A stretch of 64,000 nt of DNA. Origin: Clostridiales bacterium. Its GTDB lineage: Bacteria > Bacillota > Clostridia > UBA1381. The stretch's first letter is position 1. The number at the start of each line of letters is the position of its first letter. Shown piece after piece: positions 21,518-42,247 of the stretch. The stretch covers positions 1-64,000 of the forward strand of contig JAQXZB010000041.1 of assembly GCA_029226975.1 (NCBI GenBank), read 5' to 3'. The notes beneath the pieces were generated by a model. It searched no databases. It was not told where the DNA came from and saw only the letters and a list, made by a program, of their open reading frames with translations. A program made the translations under genes and the position numbers.

Positions 21518-21607
21518 TGGAAGAAGGGATGGGATTCGAACCCACGAATGACTTTCGCCATTACAGCATTTCCAATGCTGCGCCTTCAGCCTCTCGGCCA
21601 CCCCTCC
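21518..21607 (-). tRNA. tRNA-Ser (GGA)
   Basis: On minus, the sequence begins GGAGGGGTGGCCGAGAGGC and folds as a class II tRNA. The anticodon loop TTGGAAA (anticodon GGA) closes on a CAGCA/TGCTG stem, with a long variable arm and the T-loop TTCGAAT. CCA is encoded. The acceptor stem pairs fully, with G1-T72 and G4-T69 wobbles, and the base before CCA is T rather than the usual G73 of serine tRNAs. From the terminator at 21345 to the lipoprotein end at 21756 nothing else is seen. Confidence 0.93.
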
Positions 21608-21755: not shown

Positions 21756-22469
21756 TTAATTGCTGCTTTCCGTAGACTGCGGGGATTGGGAAGCATTGGT
21801 TATTCCTGCCGAAATATTATCCGGGTCAAGACCCAAATCCTTCAATTTCGCTTCCGTTTCCTTTATTTCCTTGGATAATGAAGATCCGTAGGTTTCTTTT
21901 ATATTTTCCCATTTAAGCTGAGCTGAGTTATACTTCTCATCTTCAATATCATATCCAAAGGAATATAAATCACTTTCAAATTGATCTCGCATACGGGCAA
22001 TTGCTCCGTCCTCTATATTCATGTCGACTACCTTGACGGTATACGTTTCTTCCTCTGAGCTGGTGTCTATGTAGCCTAAATATTCATCAAAAACGTAGGT
22101 TTCACCTTGACTTAGAGCTCTGTCACATTCAATGCTGCCGGAGGAAACCACCTTGCCCGATGAATTAAGAATTTCCAGTTCTAAGGTTACGTTGCTTTCT
22201 TCAAAATCGTCATTGTTGTTTGTTATTTTCCCCGAAACATAAGATGATGAACCTTGCGCACGAGCCGACAGCTCGGAAACACCGATAGGCTTTGAGGTTT
22301 CCGACAAATTCTTGGTGTTGATTTTTGAGGTCTTTTTCGCCGGTTCGGTTGCTGCCGATGTGGCGGCGGGCTCGGCTGTATCGCTGTTTAGAACAGGTTG
22401 ATTGCAGCTTGCGAGGGTACTTATCAGCATGGCTGATAAAACGGCGATTGCTAAAATTTTCTTTTTCAT
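21756..22469 (-). CDS. Lipoprotein with FxLYD-like beta domain
   Basis: This 237-residue lipoprotein has signal peptide MKKKILAIAVLSAMLIST and lipobox LASC, with lipidation at C22. A Thr/Ala linker and a beta domain (SKPIGVSELSARA, LELEILNSSGKVVSSG) follow. The same layout appears in the extracellular end of the kinase encoded just upstream on the same strand. The C-terminal region is helical and charged. The start at 22469 has AAGGAG upstream. A terminator separates it from the kinase gene, so it is likely transcribed on its own. Confidence 0.82.
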   Translation of the reverse strand: MKKKILAIAVLSAMLISTLASCNQPVLNSDTAEPAATSAATEPAKKTSKINTKNLSETSKPIGVSELSARAQGSSSYVSGKITNNNDDFEESNVTLELEILNSSGKVVSSGSIECDRALSQGETYVFDEYLGYIDTSSEEETYTVKVVDMNIEDGAIARMRDQFESDLYSFGYDIEDEKYNSAQLKWENIKETYGSSLSKEIKETEAKLKDLGLDPDNISAGITNASQSPQSTESSN

Positions 22470-22548
22470 GTTTTTTTGCTCCTTTTCTTTTTTCGTTATT
22501 TTTTGTAAACATTCCTTATGACGCAGAAAAATGCTTATCACAGCGTAT

Positions 22549-22585
22549 AAAAAAATCTACGCTTTTATTATAGCGCAGATTTTTG
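22549..22585 (-). terminator. Intrinsic terminator downstream of the kinase
   Basis: On minus, AAAATCTGCGCT pairs with AGCGTAGATTTT around a short A/T loop and is followed by T residues. It ends the kinase message before the lipoprotein gene. Confidence 0.75.
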
Positions 22586-22612
22586 ATTATGTACTGTGCC
22601 GGGAGCACGATT

Positions 22613-23794
22613 TTATCTCAGTTTTACTTCGGACAGACGTATGGTGCTCAAAGTTCCGCTTGCATATGAATAGCTTCCGTCCTTTTGGATATGCGCGTAA
22701 ATTGTTCCGTCGCTTACGTTTGAACTGCCTGCGGAAAAGCTGCCGTAAACATCCGCATATCCCAGAGTTATTCCGCTGCTGTCCAAAAGCTCGAATGTCA
22801 AGGTTACATATGTATATTCCGAAAAGCCTTGATTATCCGTAAGCTTTACATATACACGCAAGAACGGATCATCTTCCTCAAGTCTGAGAGAGGATATGCC
22901 TACCGGTGTGGAAGTATCGTTAAACTCGCCGTATGATATGCTTACGGGAGTTGGTGGGGAAGCGTTGCCTGTGTCAGTGCTTTTCCCCAATAAAAATCCC
23001 AAGGCCGCCGCGGCTGATATAATTAAAACTGCGACTGCGAAAATCAGACCGAGAACTTTTTTGGGGAAATAACTGCTTTGGGCAGCGGCTGAGTGCGGAG
23101 CTTGTACATTTGCAGTCTCGGAATTTCCGTCAAGTGCTCGATACAACTCGGCAACGGAGCCATAACGTTCATCGGGGGAAAGCTTTGTACATTTTTCAAT
23201 AATCGGCTTAAGCAAGCCGTTATAGCCTGCAAGCTCCTTTAGAGGTCTGCCGTTTGTGAGCAGTTCAAACATCATTGCACCTACCGAATATATATCCGAG
23301 CGTTCGTCTGTCTGGGCAAAGCCGTACTGCTCCGGGGGAGCGTAGCCCTCCGTTCCGATACAATGGGTATCCTTTCGTCTGTACTCCTTATGAGTTCGGG
23401 CTATGTCGAAATCAATAAGCTTAATTATCCCGTCATCGGTAAGCATCACGTTTGACGGCTTTATATCCCTGTGAATTATACCGTTTTTGTGAAGCTCGGC
23501 AAGCCCCTCGCAAAGCTGAAGCGTCCATTCCTTAACCTCATATTCCGCGGCGCATCTGTTAAGTGCGGAGAGCGAAATTCCCGAAACATACTCCAGTATA
23601 ACCGTATCACTGTATACTTCATGGATTTTTACAATGTGCGGATTTTGTATGCCCTTGGCATTTTCGTATGCGTCGGCTTGTCCCTGCTTTAGTTTTTTCA
23701 TAATGTAAATGCGTCTGTCTTCTGTGTTTGTTACCAAAAACACATCGGAGTTTACTGTTGACGCAATAGTTTCCAATATTCTGTATTTTTCCAT
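22613..23794 (-). CDS. Receptor-type Ser/Thr protein kinase with FxLYD-like outer domain
   Basis: This 393-residue protein has a Hanks-type kinase domain (about 1-222): catalytic loop HRDIKPSN (H109-N116), metal site DFD (128-130, where DFG is usual) and GTEGYAPPEQYG in the activation segment. The usual glycine-rich loop is weak (ETIASTVNSD), and the ATP lysine is K33 or K34 (YIMKKL). One membrane helix (about 247-270) leads to an outer beta domain (STPVGISSLRL, LTFELLDSSG). It resembles the nearby lipoprotein, so the two may recognise related signals. A divergent HTH protein lies upstream. Confidence 0.85.
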   Translation of the reverse strand: MEKYRILETIASTVNSDVFLVTNTEDRRIYIMKKLKQGQADAYENAKGIQNPHIVKIHEVYSDTVILEYVSGISLSALNRCAAEYEVKEWTLQLCEGLAELHKNGIIHRDIKPSNVMLTDDGIIKLIDFDIARTHKEYRRKDTHCIGTEGYAPPEQYGFAQTDERSDIYSVGAMMFELLTNGRPLKELAGYNGLLKPIIEKCTKLSPDERYGSVAELYRALDGNSETANVQAPHSAAAQSSYFPKKVLGLIFAVAVLIISAAAALGFLLGKSTDTGNASPPTPVSISYGEFNDTSTPVGISSLRLEEDDPFLRVYVKLTDNQGFSEYTYVTLTFELLDSSGITLGYADVYGSFSAGSSNVSDGTIYAHIQKDGSYSYASGTLSTIRLSEVKLR

Positions 23795-23862: not shown

Positions 23863-23891
23863 TTGATTTTATTTTGCATATATGCTATAAT
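23863..23891 (+). promoter_or_regulatory. Promoter of the HTH protein gene
   Basis: TTGATT (23863-23868), a 17-bp spacer and TATAAT (23886-23891) face right in the divergent region. Confidence 0.75.
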
Positions 23892-23924: not shown

Positions 23925-24344
23925 ATGAAAACTACCGCAGAGCTTGTAAATGAAATAAAAACAGTGCCGAGTCTTAAGGATTTTTTTGAGGATAATTCAC
24001 AGGAAATGACAGACCCGAAGCTTAAAGCTTGTCTTGACGAGCTGCTCAAAGAAAAGTCAATGACGCGGGCGGAAGCAATACGCGGCGGGGATTTGAGCGC
24101 GGATTATGCCTATCAGATTTTTTCTGGACGAAAAAATCCCACAAGGGACAAGCTGATAAGGCTTGCAGTGGGAATGAAGTTAAATCTTGAGGAAACGTCA
24201 AGGCTTTTTAAAATTGCCGGCGTGGGAGAGCTGTACCCGCGTTCACGCCGGGATGCGGTTATCATGTTTTGTATAGAACGTCAAGTGCCGGTGATGAATA
24301 TCGATGAGCTTTTGTATGAGCTTGGAATGTATACGCTTGCATAA
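23925..24344 (+). CDS. HTH (XRE-like) protein next to the Ser/Thr kinase
   Basis: This 139-residue protein has an XRE-like helix-turn-helix core (LKEKSMTRAEAIRGGDLSAD, then YQIFSGRKNPTRDKLIRLA, about 40-85). A helical tail follows (SRLFKIAGVGELYPRSRRD, then IMFCIERQVPVMNIDELLYELG). The tail matches the C-terminal part of the macro-domain pseudogene at 134-897. It is divergently transcribed from the kinase, so it may be a kinase substrate or a regulator of it. No catalytic motif is visible. Confidence 0.72.
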   Translation: MKTTAELVNEIKTVPSLKDFFEDNSQEMTDPKLKACLDELLKEKSMTRAEAIRGGDLSADYAYQIFSGRKNPTRDKLIRLAVGMKLNLEETSRLFKIAGVGELYPRSRRDAVIMFCIERQVPVMNIDELLYELGMYTLA

Positions 24345-35533: not shown

Positions 35534-36259
35534 ATGTATTACGGATATTACGGAGGCTCATATATTCTGGTTATAATAGGCTTTATTTTAACCATGTTTG
35601 CCTCATTCGGAGTTCAGGCGACATTTAAGCGTTACAGCTCAAAATCCGCCTCCAACGGAATAACTGCCGCTATGGCTGCAAGGCGCATACTTGACGCAAA
35701 CGGTCTGGGGCATATCAGAATTGAGAGGGTTGGCGGAAATCTGACCGACCATTACAGCCCCAATGAAAATGTCATAAGGCTTTCGGATTCGACCTATGAC
35801 TCGTCCTCGGTGGCGGCGATAGGCGTTGCCGCCCATGAATGCGGTCATGCGGTTCAGCATAAGGACGGCTATGTGCCGATAAAAATCAGGAACGGAATTG
35901 TTCCGATAGTAAATATATCAAACAGGCTGGCAATGCCGATATTTGTACTGGGGCTGATACTCCAGGGTACGGCAAGACACGCCCAGAGCGGAGTGGGTCT
36001 TACGCTTGCGTATATAGGAGCACTGCTTTTTGCAATGGTGCTGCTGTTTCAGGTTGTAACCCTACCCTGTGAGCTTAACGCTTCGTCAAGGGCAATGAAA
36101 ACCATACGCGATATGGATTTGCTTTACGGCGATGAGCTTGTGGGAGCAAGAAAGGTGCTTACCGCGGCAGCCATGACCTATGTGGCGGCGGTGGCTTCAA
36201 CGGCACTGCAGTTTTTAAGACTGCTTATAATACTGAATAATAACCGAAGAAGAGATTAA
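35534..36259 (+). CDS. YugP-like membrane zinc metallopeptidase
   Basis: This 241-residue membrane protease of the Zn_peptidase_2 family has an N-terminal membrane segment, the zinc motif HECGH (in GVAAHECGHAVQHK), two further hydrophobic segments (about 135-155 and 160-180) and the C-terminal CELNASSRA motif. It sits between fmt and rsmB, a conserved Firmicutes position. The substrate is unknown. Confidence 0.9.
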   Translation: MYYGYYGGSYILVIIGFILTMFASFGVQATFKRYSSKSASNGITAAMAARRILDANGLGHIRIERVGGNLTDHYSPNENVIRLSDSTYDSSSVAAIGVAAHECGHAVQHKDGYVPIKIRNGIVPIVNISNRLAMPIFVLGLILQGTARHAQSGVGLTLAYIGALLFAMVLLFQVVTLPCELNASSRAMKTIRDMDLLYGDELVGARKVLTAAAMTYVAAVASTALQFLRLLIILNNNRRRD

Positions 36260-37504
36260 ATGGAAAATTCGAGAAAAACAGCATTAAAAATTTTATACGA
36301 AGTGGAATATAACGGCGCGTATCCGAATATGGCTGTAAAAAACGCGCTCCACGGAGATTTGACAAGACAGGAGAGAGCGTTTGTGTCCGCATTGGTTTAC
36401 GGCTGTGTGGATAAGAAGCTTACTCTTGATTATATGATTTCTCAGCTGAGCCATGTAAAACTCAAAAAACTGTCAAAATATATTCTGCTTATCCTTAGAA
36501 TGGGAATATATCAGATAATGTTCATGGAGTCGGTTCCCGACAGCGCCGCGGTAAACGAGAGCGTCAAGCTTGCCAAGCGTTACGGTCACGGCGCATCGGC
36601 AGGGTATGTAAACGGTGTATTAAGGAGCCTTATCCGCTCCGCTCCGTCTTATCCCTCCGACCCGGTTTTAAGAATGGCGGTGGAATATTCCTGTCCGGAA
36701 TGGCTTTTAAGAAAATGGCTTGATGAATTCGGCGAGGAGTTTACCCGCGCTCTGCTTGAGGGCTTTTTAAAGAAGCCGGAGCTTATTTTAAGACCCAACA
36801 CATTAAAAATTACCGCTTCACAGCTTGTAGAAAAGCTTAAGGAGCGGGGCATGGAAGCAAGGGAATGTGACGGAGCCGTTATATGCGGCGGCTTTGACAT
36901 AGCCTATGACGCGCTGTACGCCGAAGGACTTTATACAGTACAGGACCTTGCGGCAATGCAGGCTGCCCGGGTGCTTGACCCCCGGCCCGGAGAGTGCGTT
37001 ATCGATATGTGCGCAGCGCCGGGCGGAAAAACAACACATATTGCGGAGCTTATGGAAAACCGGGGAAAAATTCTGGCCTTTGATATATTCGAGCATAAAA
37101 CCGAGCTTATAAGAAAGAACGCGGCAAGACTGGGTATAGATATTATACAAACCCGGGTGGCGGATACTTCAAAATACGCTCCCGCACTGGCGAAAACGGC
37201 AGATAAAATTCTTTGCGACGTACCCTGTTCGGGAACGGGAATTTTGAGAAGAAAGCCGGACATAAAATGGAATCGTGACAGGGATTTTGATTTCCCCGCA
37301 CTGCAAAGGCGTATTCTTGCCAATGCGCTCAGATACTTAAAGGACGGCGGAGTGCTTGTATACTCCACCTGTTCGGTGGAAAGAGAGGAAAACGAGGGTG
37401 TTACCTCGCAGGCGGAGGGCTTTGAAAAGCTGTATGAAAAAACCTTCTACCCGCATATTGATGATACCGACGGATTTTACATCTGCAAATTAAGGAAGAT
37501 ATGA
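36260..37504 (+). CDS. rsmB: 16S rRNA m5C967 methyltransferase
   Basis: This 414-residue enzyme has an N-terminal NusB-like RNA-binding domain (about 1-140) and a SAM-dependent methyltransferase domain with DMCAAPGGKTTH. The two catalytic cysteines are in CDVPCSGTG and YSTCSVEREENE. The ATG directly follows the previous stop. It overlaps rlmN by four bases. Confidence 0.95.
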   Translation: MENSRKTALKILYEVEYNGAYPNMAVKNALHGDLTRQERAFVSALVYGCVDKKLTLDYMISQLSHVKLKKLSKYILLILRMGIYQIMFMESVPDSAAVNESVKLAKRYGHGASAGYVNGVLRSLIRSAPSYPSDPVLRMAVEYSCPEWLLRKWLDEFGEEFTRALLEGFLKKPELILRPNTLKITASQLVEKLKERGMEARECDGAVICGGFDIAYDALYAEGLYTVQDLAAMQAARVLDPRPGECVIDMCAAPGGKTTHIAELMENRGKILAFDIFEHKTELIRKNAARLGIDIIQTRVADTSKYAPALAKTADKILCDVPCSGTGILRRKPDIKWNRDRDFDFPALQRRILANALRYLKDGGVLVYSTCSVEREENEGVTSQAEGFEKLYEKTFYPHIDDTDGFYICKLRKI

Positions 37505-38520
37505 TTGATTTAAAAGACTTGGAATACAATGAGCTTTCCGACCTCCTGGCAGGTCTGGGCGAAAAGAAATTCAGAACGGAGCAGATTTTTTCATGGCTGC
37601 ACAAGGGGGTTACCTCCTTTGAGGAAATGACCAATCTGTCTGCACTGACAAGGGAGAAGCTTAGCAAAATAAGCTTTGTTTCATCACTTGGTATTCGTGA
37701 AAAGTATGTTTCAAAAATTGACGGGACGGTTAAATATCTTTTTGAGCTGCCCGACAAAAACTGTATAGAAAGTGTTGTCATGCGTTATCATCATGGGCTT
37801 ACCATCTGCATATCGAGCCAGATAGGCTGCAGAATGGGCTGCCGTTTCTGCGCCTCGACCATAGGCGGCTTATACAGAAATCTTACGCCGGGAGAGATAT
37901 TAAATCAGGTTATATTTGCCCAAAAGGATATGGGTGAGAGAATAAGCAATATCGTGCTTATGGGAATAGGTGAGCCGCTGGATAATTACGATAATGTAAT
38001 AAAATTTCTGCATAATGTAAATCATGAAAAGGGGCTTAATATCGGATACAGGCATATATCCCTTTCAAGCTGCGGCGTAGTGCCCAAGATTTATGAGCTG
38101 GCGCAGGAAAATCTGCCCATAACGCTTACCATTTCACTGCACGCGCCCAATGACGAAATACGAAACCAAATCATGCCCGTAAATCACAGCTATTCCATAG
38201 CAGAGCTTATGCGGGCGTGCAGAGCATATACGGAAAAGACCGCAAGGCGGATAAGCTTTGAATATTCACTTATAAACGGCGTAAACGACAGCTCAAAAGA
38301 AGCCCGGGAGCTTGCCGCCCTCATTAAGGGGATGCATGCTCATGTTAATCTGATACCGGTAAACGAGGTTAAGGAGCGGGGCTTTAAAAAGGGCAGTCAA
38401 AGGGAAATTCAGGCATTTTTAAATGAGCTTAAAGCCCTTGGCGTAAACGCCACAATACGCCGTGAGCTGGGCGCGGATATAAACGCCTCCTGCGGTCAGC
38501 TGAGAAAAAAGACGCTATGA
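37501..38520 (+). CDS. rlmN: 23S rRNA m2A2503 methyltransferase (radical SAM)
   Basis: This 339-residue radical SAM enzyme has CxxxCxxC as CRMGCRFC (4Fe-4S), the GEPLDNYDNVI motif, and a catalytic Cys in the C-terminal INASCGQLR motif. It methylates A2503 in 23S rRNA and A37 in some tRNAs. A Cfr resistance enzyme is less likely given the core operon setting. The ATGA overlap couples it to rsmB. Confidence 0.95.
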   Translation: MIDLKDLEYNELSDLLAGLGEKKFRTEQIFSWLHKGVTSFEEMTNLSALTREKLSKISFVSSLGIREKYVSKIDGTVKYLFELPDKNCIESVVMRYHHGLTICISSQIGCRMGCRFCASTIGGLYRNLTPGEILNQVIFAQKDMGERISNIVLMGIGEPLDNYDNVIKFLHNVNHEKGLNIGYRHISLSSCGVVPKIYELAQENLPITLTISLHAPNDEIRNQIMPVNHSYSIAELMRACRAYTEKTARRISFEYSLINGVNDSSKEARELAALIKGMHAHVNLIPVNEVKERGFKKGSQREIQAFLNELKALGVNATIRRELGADINASCGQLRKKTL

Positions 38521-38538
38521 GGTAAAGGGGTGATATAA

Positions 38539-39267
38539 ATGCAGTTTGGAGCTGTTAGCGACATAGGAAGAGTAAGAAAGATAAATGAGGACAGCTTCTT
38601 TGTATCAAAAAACGAGCTGTTCCCGTACATTATTGTCGCGGACGGAATGGGCGGTCATGAAGCGGGCGAGGTTGCCAGCCGAATGATGACCGATATTGTC
38701 GAAAACCATTTAAGGCGAAATCTTGACGGCGAAATGGATTATGTCGAAGCGGGAGAGGCAATAAGGCAGGCATTTGTCGCGGCTAACAGTATAATCTATA
38801 CATATGCGAAAAACCATTATAAGGTAATGGGCATGGGAACTACCGCAACGCTTGCCATGATTTTTAAAGGCAAGCTGATAGCTGCCCACGTTGGGGATTC
38901 GCGGGGCTACAAGCTTTATAGCGGGCATATTGAACAAATAACAAAGGATCACTCGTATGTAATGGAGCTTGTGGCAAGAGGCGATATTACCATGGAGGAG
39001 GCAAAGCACCACCCGAAGAAAAATTTCATAACACGCGCAATCGGCGCCGAGGATATTGTAAGAGTTGATATTTCAATATTCCCGTATGAGGGTGAAACAG
39101 TGCTTTTGTGCAGCGACGGATTGACAAATTTTGTAGAGGACAATGAAATTTTGGAGTATATGCTCAATGCGGACAATTTGCAATGCGGTGTTGAGCGGCT
39201 TGTGCGCCTTGCGAATGAAAGAGGCGGAAGGGATAATATTACCGCTGCGGCGATGAAGAAGGAGTAA
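38539..39267 (+). CDS. prpC: PP2C-type Ser/Thr protein phosphatase
   Basis: This 242-residue phosphatase has metal-site motifs IVADGMGGHEAGE, AHVGDSRGYKL, and the C-terminal CSDGLTNF and RGGRDNIT. It dephosphorylates proteins modified by PrkC, which follows directly. Start GGGTGATATAAATG is standard. Confidence 0.96.
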   Translation: MQFGAVSDIGRVRKINEDSFFVSKNELFPYIIVADGMGGHEAGEVASRMMTDIVENHLRRNLDGEMDYVEAGEAIRQAFVAANSIIYTYAKNHYKVMGMGTTATLAMIFKGKLIAAHVGDSRGYKLYSGHIEQITKDHSYVMELVARGDITMEEAKHHPKKNFITRAIGAEDIVRVDISIFPYEGETVLLCSDGLTNFVEDNEILEYMLNADNLQCGVERLVRLANERGGRDNITAAAMKKE

Positions 39268-39272
39268 AATGC

Positions 39273-41387
39273 ATGAAAACTGAGAATTTGGTGGGAACAA
39301 CACTCGGCGGCAGATACGAGGTGCTTGAAAATATAGGAACCGGGGGTATGGCAACTGTTTTTAAGGCAAAGGACAGTCTTTTAAACAGGTTTGTGGCAAT
39401 AAAGGTTTTAAGGGATAATCTTGAGGGCGAGGAGCAGGTTGTAACAAACTTTATAAAAGAGGCGCAGTCCTCTGCTTCGCTTGTGCACAATAATATTGTT
39501 TCGGTTTATGACGTGGGCGAGGAAAACGGAATAAACTACATGGTAATGGAGCTTGTGGACGGAATTACCCTAAAAAAATACATAAGGGAAAACGGCGCTC
39601 TGCCATGGCAGGAGGCGTGCGACTATGCCATTCAGATAGGTCAGGGCATTAACGAGGCTCATGCAAATAATATTATTCACCGGGACATCAAGCCGCAGAA
39701 TATTATAATGACCCAGGATAAAACCTTAAAGGTTACGGATTTCGGAATAGCAAGAGCCGCGGCGGCGGATACGACCATAGTGGGCGGTACCGCTTTAGGC
39801 TCGGTGCATTACATTTCCCCGGAGCAGGCAAGGGGCGGCTTTACGGACGCCAGAAGCGATATTTATTCTCTCGGTATAGTTCTTTATGAAATGCTTACCG
39901 GAAAGGTTCCCTTTGACGGGGATACGCCCGTATCGGTGGCACTGATGCATTTAGAGAAAGAGCCGGTTGATGTAAAATGCGTTAATATGGACATTCCTAC
40001 GGATTTGGCGTATGTTACAATGAAGGCGATTGCAAAGGAGCAGAAGAACCGCTATCAGAACGTGCAGGAAATGCTAAATGATCTCCACGCCGTTTTGGCA
40101 GAGGAGCCTCTTCCGTCAAAAGAGGTTATATCGGATGGCGGTATGCTTGATGACGAAACAGACGATTTCGGGTATGACGGCGATGAGGAAATAATTGATG
40201 ATGAGCCCATAAGAGAAAATACAAAGAGCAGAAGCAAAAAGCGTAAAAAGGCGCGGAAAAAGAAAACCGCCGCTCAAAAGAAAGAGGACAGGCTTGCGGT
40301 TATTCTTGCAATAGGTACCGTTGCGGCGCTTTTGCTCATAGTTTTCGGTGCTTATAAGTTTATAAACAATATGAAGGGTACGTCAGTGCCAAATCTTGTG
40401 AATATGACGGTTGAGGAAGCAACGCAGAAGCTTTTGGAGATTGATTTAAAGGCGGCGGACGAGATAGAATATTCGCTCTCGGACGATATTGAGGAGGGGC
40501 GTGTTGTTACTCAGGACCCGGCTGCAAACACATTTCTTGCCAAAGGCTCTGCCGTTAAGCTGATTGTGTCAATCGGTCCTTCGGGCGGTAATATACAGGC
40601 ACCGCAGACGGTCGGAAAGACCTTTGAAGAAGCAATAGAGGATATTCTTGCACTTGGTCTTACCTATACGGTTAAGGAAGAGCCATCCGACTCGGTTGAG
40701 GCAAACAGAGTTATAAGACAGCTGCCCATAGCAGGAACAATGCTTAACCAAAACGATATTATTACACTGCATATAAGTATGGGCAAGGGCAATTCAACCA
40801 CAGAAGCTCCCGCCATGGTACAAAAGGTCAAGGTGCCGGATGTTGTCGGCTTGGGACGCGAGCAGGCAGAGGAAATACTTGCCAAGTACGGGCTTTCCAT
40901 AAGCTCCGTTACCAGAAGTCCATCATCAGTGGGTGAAAATCTGATAATTTCACAAAGCCCGGACAGCTCAAAAACCGTTGTAAAGGGCAGCTCGGTAAGC
41001 ATAGTTCTTTCAAGCGGAAATGAGCAGAGCACTCAGTCAAGCTCAGCACAGGAGGGACAGCATAATTTCTACGGTCAGGAGGTAGATGAAAACGGTGCAA
41101 CCGCAGCCCCCGAACCGGAGGAAAACAGATCCGAACAGCCCGAGGAGGAGCCGCCTCGTGAAGAACCCCAGCCGGAAAAGCAGACCAAGACCTTTACCAT
41201 GAAAATTCCCGACAGCGCGGGAGATACCGTTGAGGTGGAAATTGTGGCAGACGGAGTAACTGTTCATTCCGGTACACATCAAAAAAGCGAGGGTTATGTT
41301 TCGGCACAGATTTCGGGCGAGGGAACCGTTACGGTGCAGGCATATGTTGACGGAGCGTTGGCGGCGCAGAAGCAGATAACATTTTGA
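39273..41387 (+). CDS. prkC: Ser/Thr kinase with three PASTA domains
   Basis: This 704-residue receptor kinase has the Gly loop NIGTGGMATVFKA, the ATP lysine in VAIKVL, the catalytic loop HRDIKPQN and DFGIARA. A Lys-rich linker and membrane helix (about 345-365, LAVILAIGTVAALLLIVFGA) follow. Three extracellular PASTA repeats (about 370-435, 440-505 and 510-580) sense cell-wall fragments. After them come a Glu/Pro-rich linker and a short beta tail. The ribosome site GGAG lies in the end of prpC. Confidence 0.95.
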   Translation: MKTENLVGTTLGGRYEVLENIGTGGMATVFKAKDSLLNRFVAIKVLRDNLEGEEQVVTNFIKEAQSSASLVHNNIVSVYDVGEENGINYMVMELVDGITLKKYIRENGALPWQEACDYAIQIGQGINEAHANNIIHRDIKPQNIIMTQDKTLKVTDFGIARAAAADTTIVGGTALGSVHYISPEQARGGFTDARSDIYSLGIVLYEMLTGKVPFDGDTPVSVALMHLEKEPVDVKCVNMDIPTDLAYVTMKAIAKEQKNRYQNVQEMLNDLHAVLAEEPLPSKEVISDGGMLDDETDDFGYDGDEEIIDDEPIRENTKSRSKKRKKARKKKTAAQKKEDRLAVILAIGTVAALLLIVFGAYKFINNMKGTSVPNLVNMTVEEATQKLLEIDLKAADEIEYSLSDDIEEGRVVTQDPAANTFLAKGSAVKLIVSIGPSGGNIQAPQTVGKTFEEAIEDILALGLTYTVKEEPSDSVEANRVIRQLPIAGTMLNQNDIITLHISMGKGNSTTEAPAMVQKVKVPDVVGLGREQAEEILAKYGLSISSVTRSPSSVGENLIISQSPDSSKTVVKGSSVSIVLSSGNEQSTQSSSAQEGQHNFYGQEVDENGATAAPEPEENRSEQPEEEPPREEPQPEKQTKTFTMKIPDSAGDTVEVEIVADGVTVHSGTHQKSEGYVSAQISGEGTVTVQAYVDGALAAQKQITF

Positions 41388-42247
41388 TGAATATGACAGG
41401 AATTATAATTAAGGGAATCGGCGGTTTTTACTATGTAAAAGCCGCCGATAACAACGTATATGAATGCAGAGCGCGGGGGCTTTTCAGACGTGACGGGATA
41501 ACTCCCATGATAGGCGACCGCGTGGATATATCGGATAACACAATAGTAAAAATCCATGAGCGCACTACAATGCTTACGCGTCCGCCGGTGGCAAATGTGG
41601 ACACACTGCTGCTTGTGGCGGCGGCTGCCGAGCCGGAGCCTAACACGCTTTTATTGGATAAAATGAGTATAAACGCGCGGCAATGCGGCATTGAAACAAT
41701 GCTGTGTATAAACAAATCGGAGCTTGCCGACAGGCATGACCTTGCCGAAATATATGAAAGTGCGCTTAGCTGTGTGATTTTTACAAGTGCAAAAGAGGGC
41801 AGGGGCATTGATGAGCTTCGCGAGCTGTTAAAAGGGCGCGTGACGGCTTTTGCGGGTCTTAGCGGAGTGGGGAAATCAACGCTTTTGAGCCTTATAACAA
41901 ACCGCAGTCTTGAAACGGGAAGCGTAAGCGAAAAGATAATGCGCGGAAGGCACACCACAAGGCATGTGGAACTTTTTGCCCTTGATGAGGGCGGCTTTGT
42001 ACTGGACACACCGGGTTTTTCGTCCCTTGAAACGGAAAATATCGATGCGGACAAGCTGTGGGAATATTTCCCCGAAATGGCGCAGGCCCAGGGCAGATGC
42101 CGTTTTCGGGGCTGCTCGCATATAAACGAGCCGGACTGCTATGTAAAAAAGCTTTTGGAGGAGGGCAAAATAAAGCCCTCGCGCTACGAAAGCTATAAGG
42201 AAATTTACGGCAGACTTAAGCTTGTAAAAAAGTGGGAGAAAAAATAG
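41387..42247 (+). CDS. rsgA: Ribosome small-subunit GTPase A
   Basis: This 286-residue circularly permuted GTPase has G4 NKSE before the P-loop GLSGVGKSTLL and G3 DTPGFSS. A C-terminal zinc module reads CRFRGCSHINEPDC. An OB-fold starts the protein. It assists 30S maturation. TGATG overlaps the prkC stop, giving tight coupling. Confidence 0.95.
   Translation: MNMTGIIIKGIGGFYYVKAADNNVYECRARGLFRRDGITPMIGDRVDISDNTIVKIHERTTMLTRPPVANVDTLLLVAAAAEPEPNTLLLDKMSINARQCGIETMLCINKSELADRHDLAEIYESALSCVIFTSAKEGRGIDELRELLKGRVTAFAGLSGVGKSTLLSLITNRSLETGSVSEKIMRGRHTTRHVELFALDEGGFVLDTPGFSSLETENIDADKLWEYFPEMAQAQGRCRFRGCSHINEPDCYVKKLLEEGKIKPSRYESYKEIYGRLKLVKKWEKK

Follow-up and report, generated by a model that had tools for sequence, protein, structure and literature searches.

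Why should a membrane kinase with an altered active site and the lipoprotein encoded beside it carry similar outer domains, and what would the pair act upon? The question is raised by a locus in a 64,000-nucleotide stretch of Clostridiales bacterium DNA (GenBank assembly GCA_029226975.1, contig JAQXZB010000041.1, positions 1 to 64,000), which in its full length is referred to here as the window. Our analysis leans towards an envelope-to-DNA signalling module composed of a beta-sandwich protein, the kinase and a cognate helix-turn-helix (HTH) regulator. Judged from sequence, the kinase is a single-pass, DFD/DYD-like membrane protein with a predicted outer FxLYD-like beta-sandwich, and the lipoprotein is an exported protein that combines a homologous beta-sandwich with a small helical domain. 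The divergent HTH gene at 23925-24344, which a preliminary description of this DNA had overlooked, belongs to the kinase-lipoprotein unit. The principal features are as follows:

22613-23794, minus strand: membrane Ser/Thr kinase, 393 aa (Pfam Pkinase, 117.6 bits; cut-off 31.7)
23126-23794, minus strand: kinase domain, about aa 1-223 (conserved residues K33, HRD 108-110, N115, DFD 128-130 and PPEQ 153-156)
22976-23074, minus strand: transmembrane segment of the kinase, aa 241-273 (single hydrophobic stretch by hydropathy)
22616-22957, minus strand: outer segment of the kinase, aa 280-393, predicted FxLYD-like beta-sandwich (AlphaFold2, FxLYD profile and lipoprotein profile match)
21756-22469, minus strand: exported lipoprotein, 237 aa, lipobox Cys22
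22008-22286, minus strand: predicted FxLYD-like beta-sandwich of the lipoprotein, about aa 62-154 (AlphaFold2, FxLYD score)
21837-22007, minus strand: C-terminal three-helix part of the lipoprotein, about aa 155-211 (AlphaFold2 pLDDT mostly 92-96)
23925-24344, plus strand: divergent HTH (XRE-like) partner, 139 aa (HTH_3, 19.1 bits; cut-off 23)

The kinase gene is separated by 143 bp from the lipoprotein gene and by 130 bp from the divergent HTH gene. For the lipoprotein, 22469 (MKKKILAIAVLSAMLISTLASC) is the most probable start and not the GTG at 22541 used in the earlier open reading frame, because a signal peptide with a lipobox fits there.

The kinase and the lipoprotein share an outer beta domain

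The preliminary description had noted a common motif in the two outer domains, and this motif was confirmed: the kinase carries STPVGISSL followed by LTFELLDSSG, and the lipoprotein SKPIGVSEL followed by LELEILNSSG. Local alignment of the outer segments scored 86, compared with a mean of 34 and a maximum of 75 over 5000 double shuffles, none of which reached 86. BLASTP of the whole proteins also linked the two (E 3e-6), but this match lies partly in the signal peptide and transmembrane (TM) regions and we therefore relied on the shuffles and on profiles. A profile of four lipoproteins (A2) aligned with a profile of four kinase ectodomains (A4) by hhalign with 94% probability (E 1.4e-7, 86 columns). 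Searching 95 genomes of the order with A2 yielded 12 places at E <= 1e-6, and the sole non-lipoprotein among them was the ectodomain of the window kinase (E 9.7e-7). The reciprocal search of 70 family genomes with A4 recovered the four kinases (E < 1e-48) and then six lipoproteins of the same family (5e-8 to 2.9e-4), with unrelated large proteins appearing only from E 0.0018 and worse. Homology between the ectodomain and the lipoprotein is thus supported by profile searches in both directions, by hhalign and by the predicted folds.

The folds were predicted with AlphaFold2, which gave a pLDDT of 77 and a pTM of 0.73 for the kinase ectodomain. In the lipoprotein model the beta domain has a pLDDT of mostly 79-89, and three helices predicted with confidence come after it. 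Six main predicted strands occur in the same order in both models. Family-2 glycosidases, through their sandwich domain, are among the best VIA matches of both models, and the chains 5t98_A and 5t99_A are common to the two lists (ectodomain: Z 8.4/8.3, rmsd 3.2-3.3, 95 residues aligned; lipoprotein: Z 8.4/8.4, rmsd 2.2, 89-90 aligned). A Z of about 8 is moderate and would indicate a common sandwich arrangement, not a function, and families beyond those listed may match as well. Agreement of the folds, proposed beforehand as a check, was found at the level of strand order and shared Protein Data Bank (PDB) matches. A sequence search of the PDB gave no convincing relative of the lipoprotein (best E 0.51, in the signal-peptide region).

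The shared domain is FxLYD-like and lies near the cut-off of that family as far as sequence profiles go. Against FxLYD (NCBIfam NF038353, cut-off 23 bits) the lipoprotein scored 21.8, 22.5 and, in the genome scan, 24.1 bits, and the kinase ectodomain 15.1 bits. Neither outer domain reached a Pfam cut-off; DUF4352 matched the ectodomain weakly (E 0.046). FxLYD proteins and DUF5067/DUF4352 lipoproteins are the closest known comparison, and homology of the ectodomain to the lipoprotein domain is a better-supported claim than FxLYD membership.

An HTH gene accompanies the kinase clade

The HTH protein was the most constant neighbour of the kinase clade and was usually transcribed divergently from it. 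When the 70 family genomes were surveyed from the kinase, with adjacency read from coordinates, the HTH gene adjoined 19 of 23 kinases (E <= 4.6e-33) compared with 0 of the 33 weaker PASTA-like matches listed; kinases with no adjacent HTH gene were those of genomes G015, G022 and G035 and of G018 contig 213. Among the best 80 of 483 relatives in a genome collection, the HTH gene was present beside 11 of the first 12 and none of the other 68. The twelfth relative (L052), an unpaired DFD kinase, sits at the end of its stretch, and its HTH side falls outside the view.

The survey was also anchored on the HTH protein, whose profile (A3) had matches at E <= 1e-8 in 24 of the 70 genomes of the family. 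At E <= 1e-15 it matched 52 of 391 genomes of the class, which were drawn from a larger group. Within the family a kinase was adjacent for 19 of the 20 HTH genes with E < 1e-40, and the remaining one lay 5.6 kb off. The class-wide search provided 27 further HTH loci, one of which (L157) comes from the window's own family. A kinase was found within 1.5 kb in 23 of these loci (18 divergent, 5 tandem) and not in the other four (L164, L166, L167 and L168).

On a tree of 138 distinct kinases, comprising 58 HTH-adjacent and 80 other kinases, the HTH-pairing label required 5 changes compared with a mean of 44.4 after shuffling. Starred branches force at least 3 changes, so that pairing is strongly clustered but does not form one clean clade. 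The tree and the 58/80 tally include loci fetched through the HTH gene and therefore overstate the rate of pairing, which leaves the kinase-anchored counts unaffected; L051 duplicates the DNA of the G018 locus, and the two were counted once.

Two further observations concern HTH genes. Small HTH-like frames (81-116 aa), mutually related by eye, lie on the same strand behind the kinases of L208, L210, L214 and L241. By our reading, a pair of HTH and DFD kinase genes also occurs in a sequence deposited as Bacteriophage sp. from human faeces (L181, MT837913.1), together with transposase-like and Fic-like frames; this sequence may be a bacterial fragment.

The DFD motif is a trait of the clade

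The window kinase displayed the features of a Hanks-type Ser/Thr kinase, with a Pkinase profile score above cut-off, the beta-3 Lys, the HRD Asp and the DFG Asp. As the preliminary description had stated, DFG is replaced by DFD (Asp128-Phe-Asp130) and the Gly loop is poor: three loop glycines are absent, leaving no glycine-rich loop, and the alpha-C region has no conserved Glu. Orthologues with 45-48% identity over the full length were identified in three genomes. Across these and the window kinase K33, D110, N115 and D128 are invariant, and each of the four has Asp where DFG has its glycine. The closest named relatives are from Bacillota.

In the tally of 138 kinases, Asp occupied the third DFG position in 34 of 58 HTH-adjacent kinases compared with 1 of 80 others, the single case being L052. 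The motif was DFD in 19 of the 58 and DYD in 13, and DYD with a beta-3 Arg occurs among them; four motifs in the tally (DLD, DVD, DFG and DFG) were read by eye. In the remaining 24 of the 58 this position is occupied by Gly (18), Asn (4) or His (2), and Asp is therefore not universal in the kinase clade.

A published family of DYD kinases (O'Boyle et al.; reviewed in PMC12599244) offers the nearest comparison. The review describes these kinases as membrane-associated, present in firmicutes and actinobacteria and missing the alpha-C Glu, with the second Asp modelled as bonding to the beta-3 Arg. The window kinase is likewise membrane-associated, from Firmicutes and without the alpha-C Glu, and has a second Asp where DFG would have Gly. 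It differs in carrying DFD and a beta-3 Lys (Lys33) where the DYD family has Tyr and Arg, and a word search of the review gives no mention of HTH or helix-turn-helix. Since the Tyr and Arg are not present, we refer to the window kinase as DYD-like and not as a DYD member. Its resemblance to the published family argues that DFD is a clade trait and not a sign of decay.

The kinase might instead be a pseudokinase scaffold that signals by binding, with no phosphotransfer. The degenerate N-lobe seen throughout the clade would fit such a role, as would the annotation of about 60% of DYD kinases as pseudokinases (PMC12599244). However, the beta-3 Lys, HRD Asp and DFG Asp are all kept in the window kinase and its three orthologues. 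These are the three residues on which the review bases the calling of pseudokinases, and by this rule the window kinase is, on its sequence, not a pseudokinase. We regard the scaffold explanation as quite unlikely.

Two other known kinases were compared. PASTA kinases of the PrkC/StkP type are, like the window kinase, single-pass Hanks-type enzymes with an outer sensor; the window kinase differs in having no PASTA repeats (no Pfam match; NF033483 126 bits, cut-off 450), DFD for DFG and, where those kinases have PP2C, an HTH neighbour. The second, Clostridioides difficile CD2148, is a membrane Hanks kinase without PASTA repeats and possibly a pseudokinase; by its published description, on which the comparison is based, its D and N are replaced by Ser (S134 and S139), unlike those of the window kinase (PMC9674922). 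A role in defence was considered and rejected: the PADLOC matches MAD6 and PD-T4-6 were read as generic kinase-domain matches, and the HTH protein gave only a 13.7-bit capH match.

Sister modules carry a DUF5067 protein

The C-terminal parts of HTH-adjacent kinases varied, with a beta-sandwich in the window genome (G000), G002, G017 and G018, and several TM helices or other long tails elsewhere. The outer part of one such kinase (L011:1387-2562, plus strand) resembles by eye what we take to be a SmpA/BLIP-type domain, perhaps another sensor exchange. The window genome itself holds a second module on contig 67 (about 36205-38313; L217:4306-6414), made up of an HTH gene, a kinase with three TM segments and a downstream DUF5067 lipoprotein gene. 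A DUF5067 lipoprotein also follows the kinase in G283 and G357 (one genus), in Monoglobus sp. (L062) and in Listeria, and in G178 a DUF5067-type protein follows the HTH gene. Across 57 HTH-bearing genomes, 4 of 30 DUF5067 places had an HTH gene at a distance of about 2 kb or less, far above an estimated chance expectation of about 0.1.

The Listeria counterpart was examined in two species. In L. monocytogenes (L179) the DFD kinase is 380 aa long and the DUF5067 lipoprotein 164 aa, and the HTH gene is divergent; L. innocua (L180) has the same arrangement, and its kinase and DUF5067 protein are so annotated. We take the genes to be lmo0617 and lmo0618, an assignment that follows from agreement in length, size and description and not from locus tags: Lmo0618 is given as 380 aa long (PMC4379056), and lmo0617 is described as encoding a putative lipoprotein that contains a DUF4352 domain (PMC5736727). 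Besides the divergent HTH gene, the likeness to the window locus includes a DFD kinase that shares 38% identity with that of the window over 233 aa, and the DUF5067 lipoprotein gene 80 bp downstream of the kinase gene. In contrast to the window kinase, the Listeria kinase ends in membrane helices, as read from its sequence, and has no ectodomain; the lipoprotein is a shorter DUF5067 protein that lacks the helical domain of the window lipoprotein. In an earlier study, ten in-frame deletion mutants including EGD-delta-lmo0618 were assayed in Caco-2 cells, and intracellular replication was reportedly reduced five- to tenfold in all mutants except that of lmo1031-1036 (PMC3091722).

These sister modules bear on the relation between the two outer domains, for which the preliminary description had offered a decoy or a co-receptor arrangement. 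As a decoy, the lipoprotein would titrate the ligand of the kinase ectodomain, and homologous beta domains, one tethered to the kinase and one lipid-anchored to the membrane, are what this proposal would predict. Yet the sister modules retain the DUF5067 protein though it would find no kinase ectodomain there as a competitor, and the conserved helical domain of the window lipoprotein would be superfluous in a decoy. We therefore consider competition of this kind very improbable and the decoy reading unsupported. The co-receptor reading is possible, and retention of a DUF5067 protein beside ectodomain-less kinases favours an accessory sensor over a decoy.

Linkage of the lipoprotein to the kinase

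Lipoprotein homologues were detected in 9 of 95 order genomes, all within one family, and kinases with a beta-sandwich ectodomain in four family genomes (G000, G002, G017 and G018). Three of these four (G000, G018 and G002) encode the lipoprotein, each time in the same cluster as the kinase. In G018 and G002 it is placed beyond the HTH gene and not behind the kinase; a search of G017 yielded no lipoprotein, but its contig stops about 0.5 kb past the HTH gene. The proposed co-occurrence of kinase and lipoprotein therefore holds in part: the genes cluster in 3/3 genomes that have both, but the lipoprotein stands apart, with no HTH or kinase gene in the surrounding 11.6-16 kb, in five genomes (G022, G023, G024, G026 and G028). 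It is thus not an obligate partner of the kinase. No lipoprotein relative was found in viral contigs, where 0 of 112 pattern hits were confirmed.

In G002 a tandem 131-aa lipoprotein (L010:3233-3628, minus strand) keeps the C-terminal helical part but has no beta domain. The adjacent full-length copy carries an in-frame TAA in the assembly.

Two intergenic signals were located in the window:

22551-22584, minus strand: intrinsic-terminator-like hairpin between the kinase and lipoprotein genes (minimum free energy (MFE) and shuffle z-score)
23863-23891, plus strand: promoter-like site TTGATT-17 nt-TATAAT in the divergent intergenic region (consensus match only)

Several results weigh against a single module. 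Besides the solitary lipoproteins, the hairpin is strong (73 nt folded, MFE -22.6 kcal/mol, z -5.2 compared with shuffles), so that kinase and lipoprotein may not form one operon. Most HTH-kinase pairs in the 54 stretches surveyed showed no recognisable beta-domain lipoprotein: DUF5067/FxLYD-type cases were confined to L051/L220 (one locus), L221, L217, L191, L192, L062, L179 and L180, the other downstream proteins being judged by eye except that of L189, which was checked against Pfam and had no match. The FxLYD scores straddle the family cut-off for the lipoprotein and miss it for the ectodomain. A sequence link between DUF5067 and the kinase ectodomain was unsupported (0.2% probability), and the 90% probability for DUF5067 and the lipoprotein falls largely over the signal peptide and linker. 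The HTH protein matches Pfam HTH families only weakly. No operator was common to the divergent intergenic regions of the relatives, and a 10-bp palindrome at the window HTH promoter was absent from the relatives examined; a promoter scan of the divergent region gave a total of 10 compared with 7.8 (sd 2.4) in shuffles.

A rival explanation would be that the outer domains are generic FxLYD/Ig-like sandwiches, common furniture of exported proteins that kinase and lipoprotein each inherited from one pool and whose adjacency is incidental, and that only kinase and HTH protein form a functional unit. Four findings accord with it: the lipoprotein occurs on its own in five genomes, a hairpin separates it from the kinase gene, other genes lie downstream of most HTH-kinase pairs, and of 14 control genomes 11 gave FxLYD matches at E <= 1, with 5 above the cut-off. 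It accounts less well for the fact that the nearest non-kinase relatives of the ectodomain profile in 70 genomes belong to this same lipoprotein family, that the genes cluster in every genome with both while differing in order, and that sister modules from several lineages again have DUF5067 proteins next to them. We judge incidental adjacency to be rather unlikely.

Proposed signalling module

The envelope-to-DNA module starts from the observed gene linkage, domain homology and kinase residues. In this model the outer beta-sandwiches would sense, or help to sense, a cell-envelope cue. The lipoprotein may act in trans as an accessory sensor or co-receptor, its beta domain contacting that of the kinase. 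The outer beta domain is fused to the kinase here, and the sister modules have a DUF5067 protein of a similar kind as a neighbour only. The kinase is presumed active, with Asp130 replacing the alpha-C Glu in a salt bridge to the beta-3 Lys; this role is modelled on the proposal for DYD kinases in the review, where the partner is Arg (PMC12599244). Its output would pass through the HTH protein, by phosphorylation or by binding, and the HTH protein would target the shared divergent promoter and probably other genes too.

Each part of the module falls in or near a described family. We found no open-access literature linking a DFD/DYD-like kinase clade with a dedicated HTH protein and a beta-sandwich lipoprotein. 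The module with its DNA-binding partner is also found in Listeria and in many gut Clostridia, and is little studied. In Clostridia and Bacilli it might represent a Ser/Thr analogue of two-component systems that is widespread but has so far gone undescribed, with a beta-sandwich outer sensor (part of the kinase or a separate lipoprotein), a DFD/DYD membrane kinase with exchangeable C-terminal parts and a dedicated, genetically linked HTH output protein, a generalisation that we put forward tentatively.

For many Ser/Thr kinases of bacteria a dedicated output is not known. The constant DNA-binding neighbour is a candidate output for a kinase clade with an odd active site, and the beta-sandwich-type exported protein found in several lineages is a candidate input. 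If the model is right, DFD/DYD-like kinases would gain a biological context that can be tested, and a Listeria kinase that is itself uncharacterised, but has a reported mutant phenotype, would join a module that extends across gut Clostridia.

Neighbouring genes

The window also contains a conventional cluster on the plus strand at 37501-42247, encoding an RlmN-like radical SAM protein, a PP2C phosphatase, a PASTA kinase and RsgA; its standard PrkC-type kinase/phosphatase pair (38539-41387) sits 15 kb from the DFD kinase. A tRNA-Ser (GGA) gene (21518-21607, minus strand), preceded by a perfect TTGACA/TATAAT site, is the immediate downstream neighbour of the lipoprotein gene.

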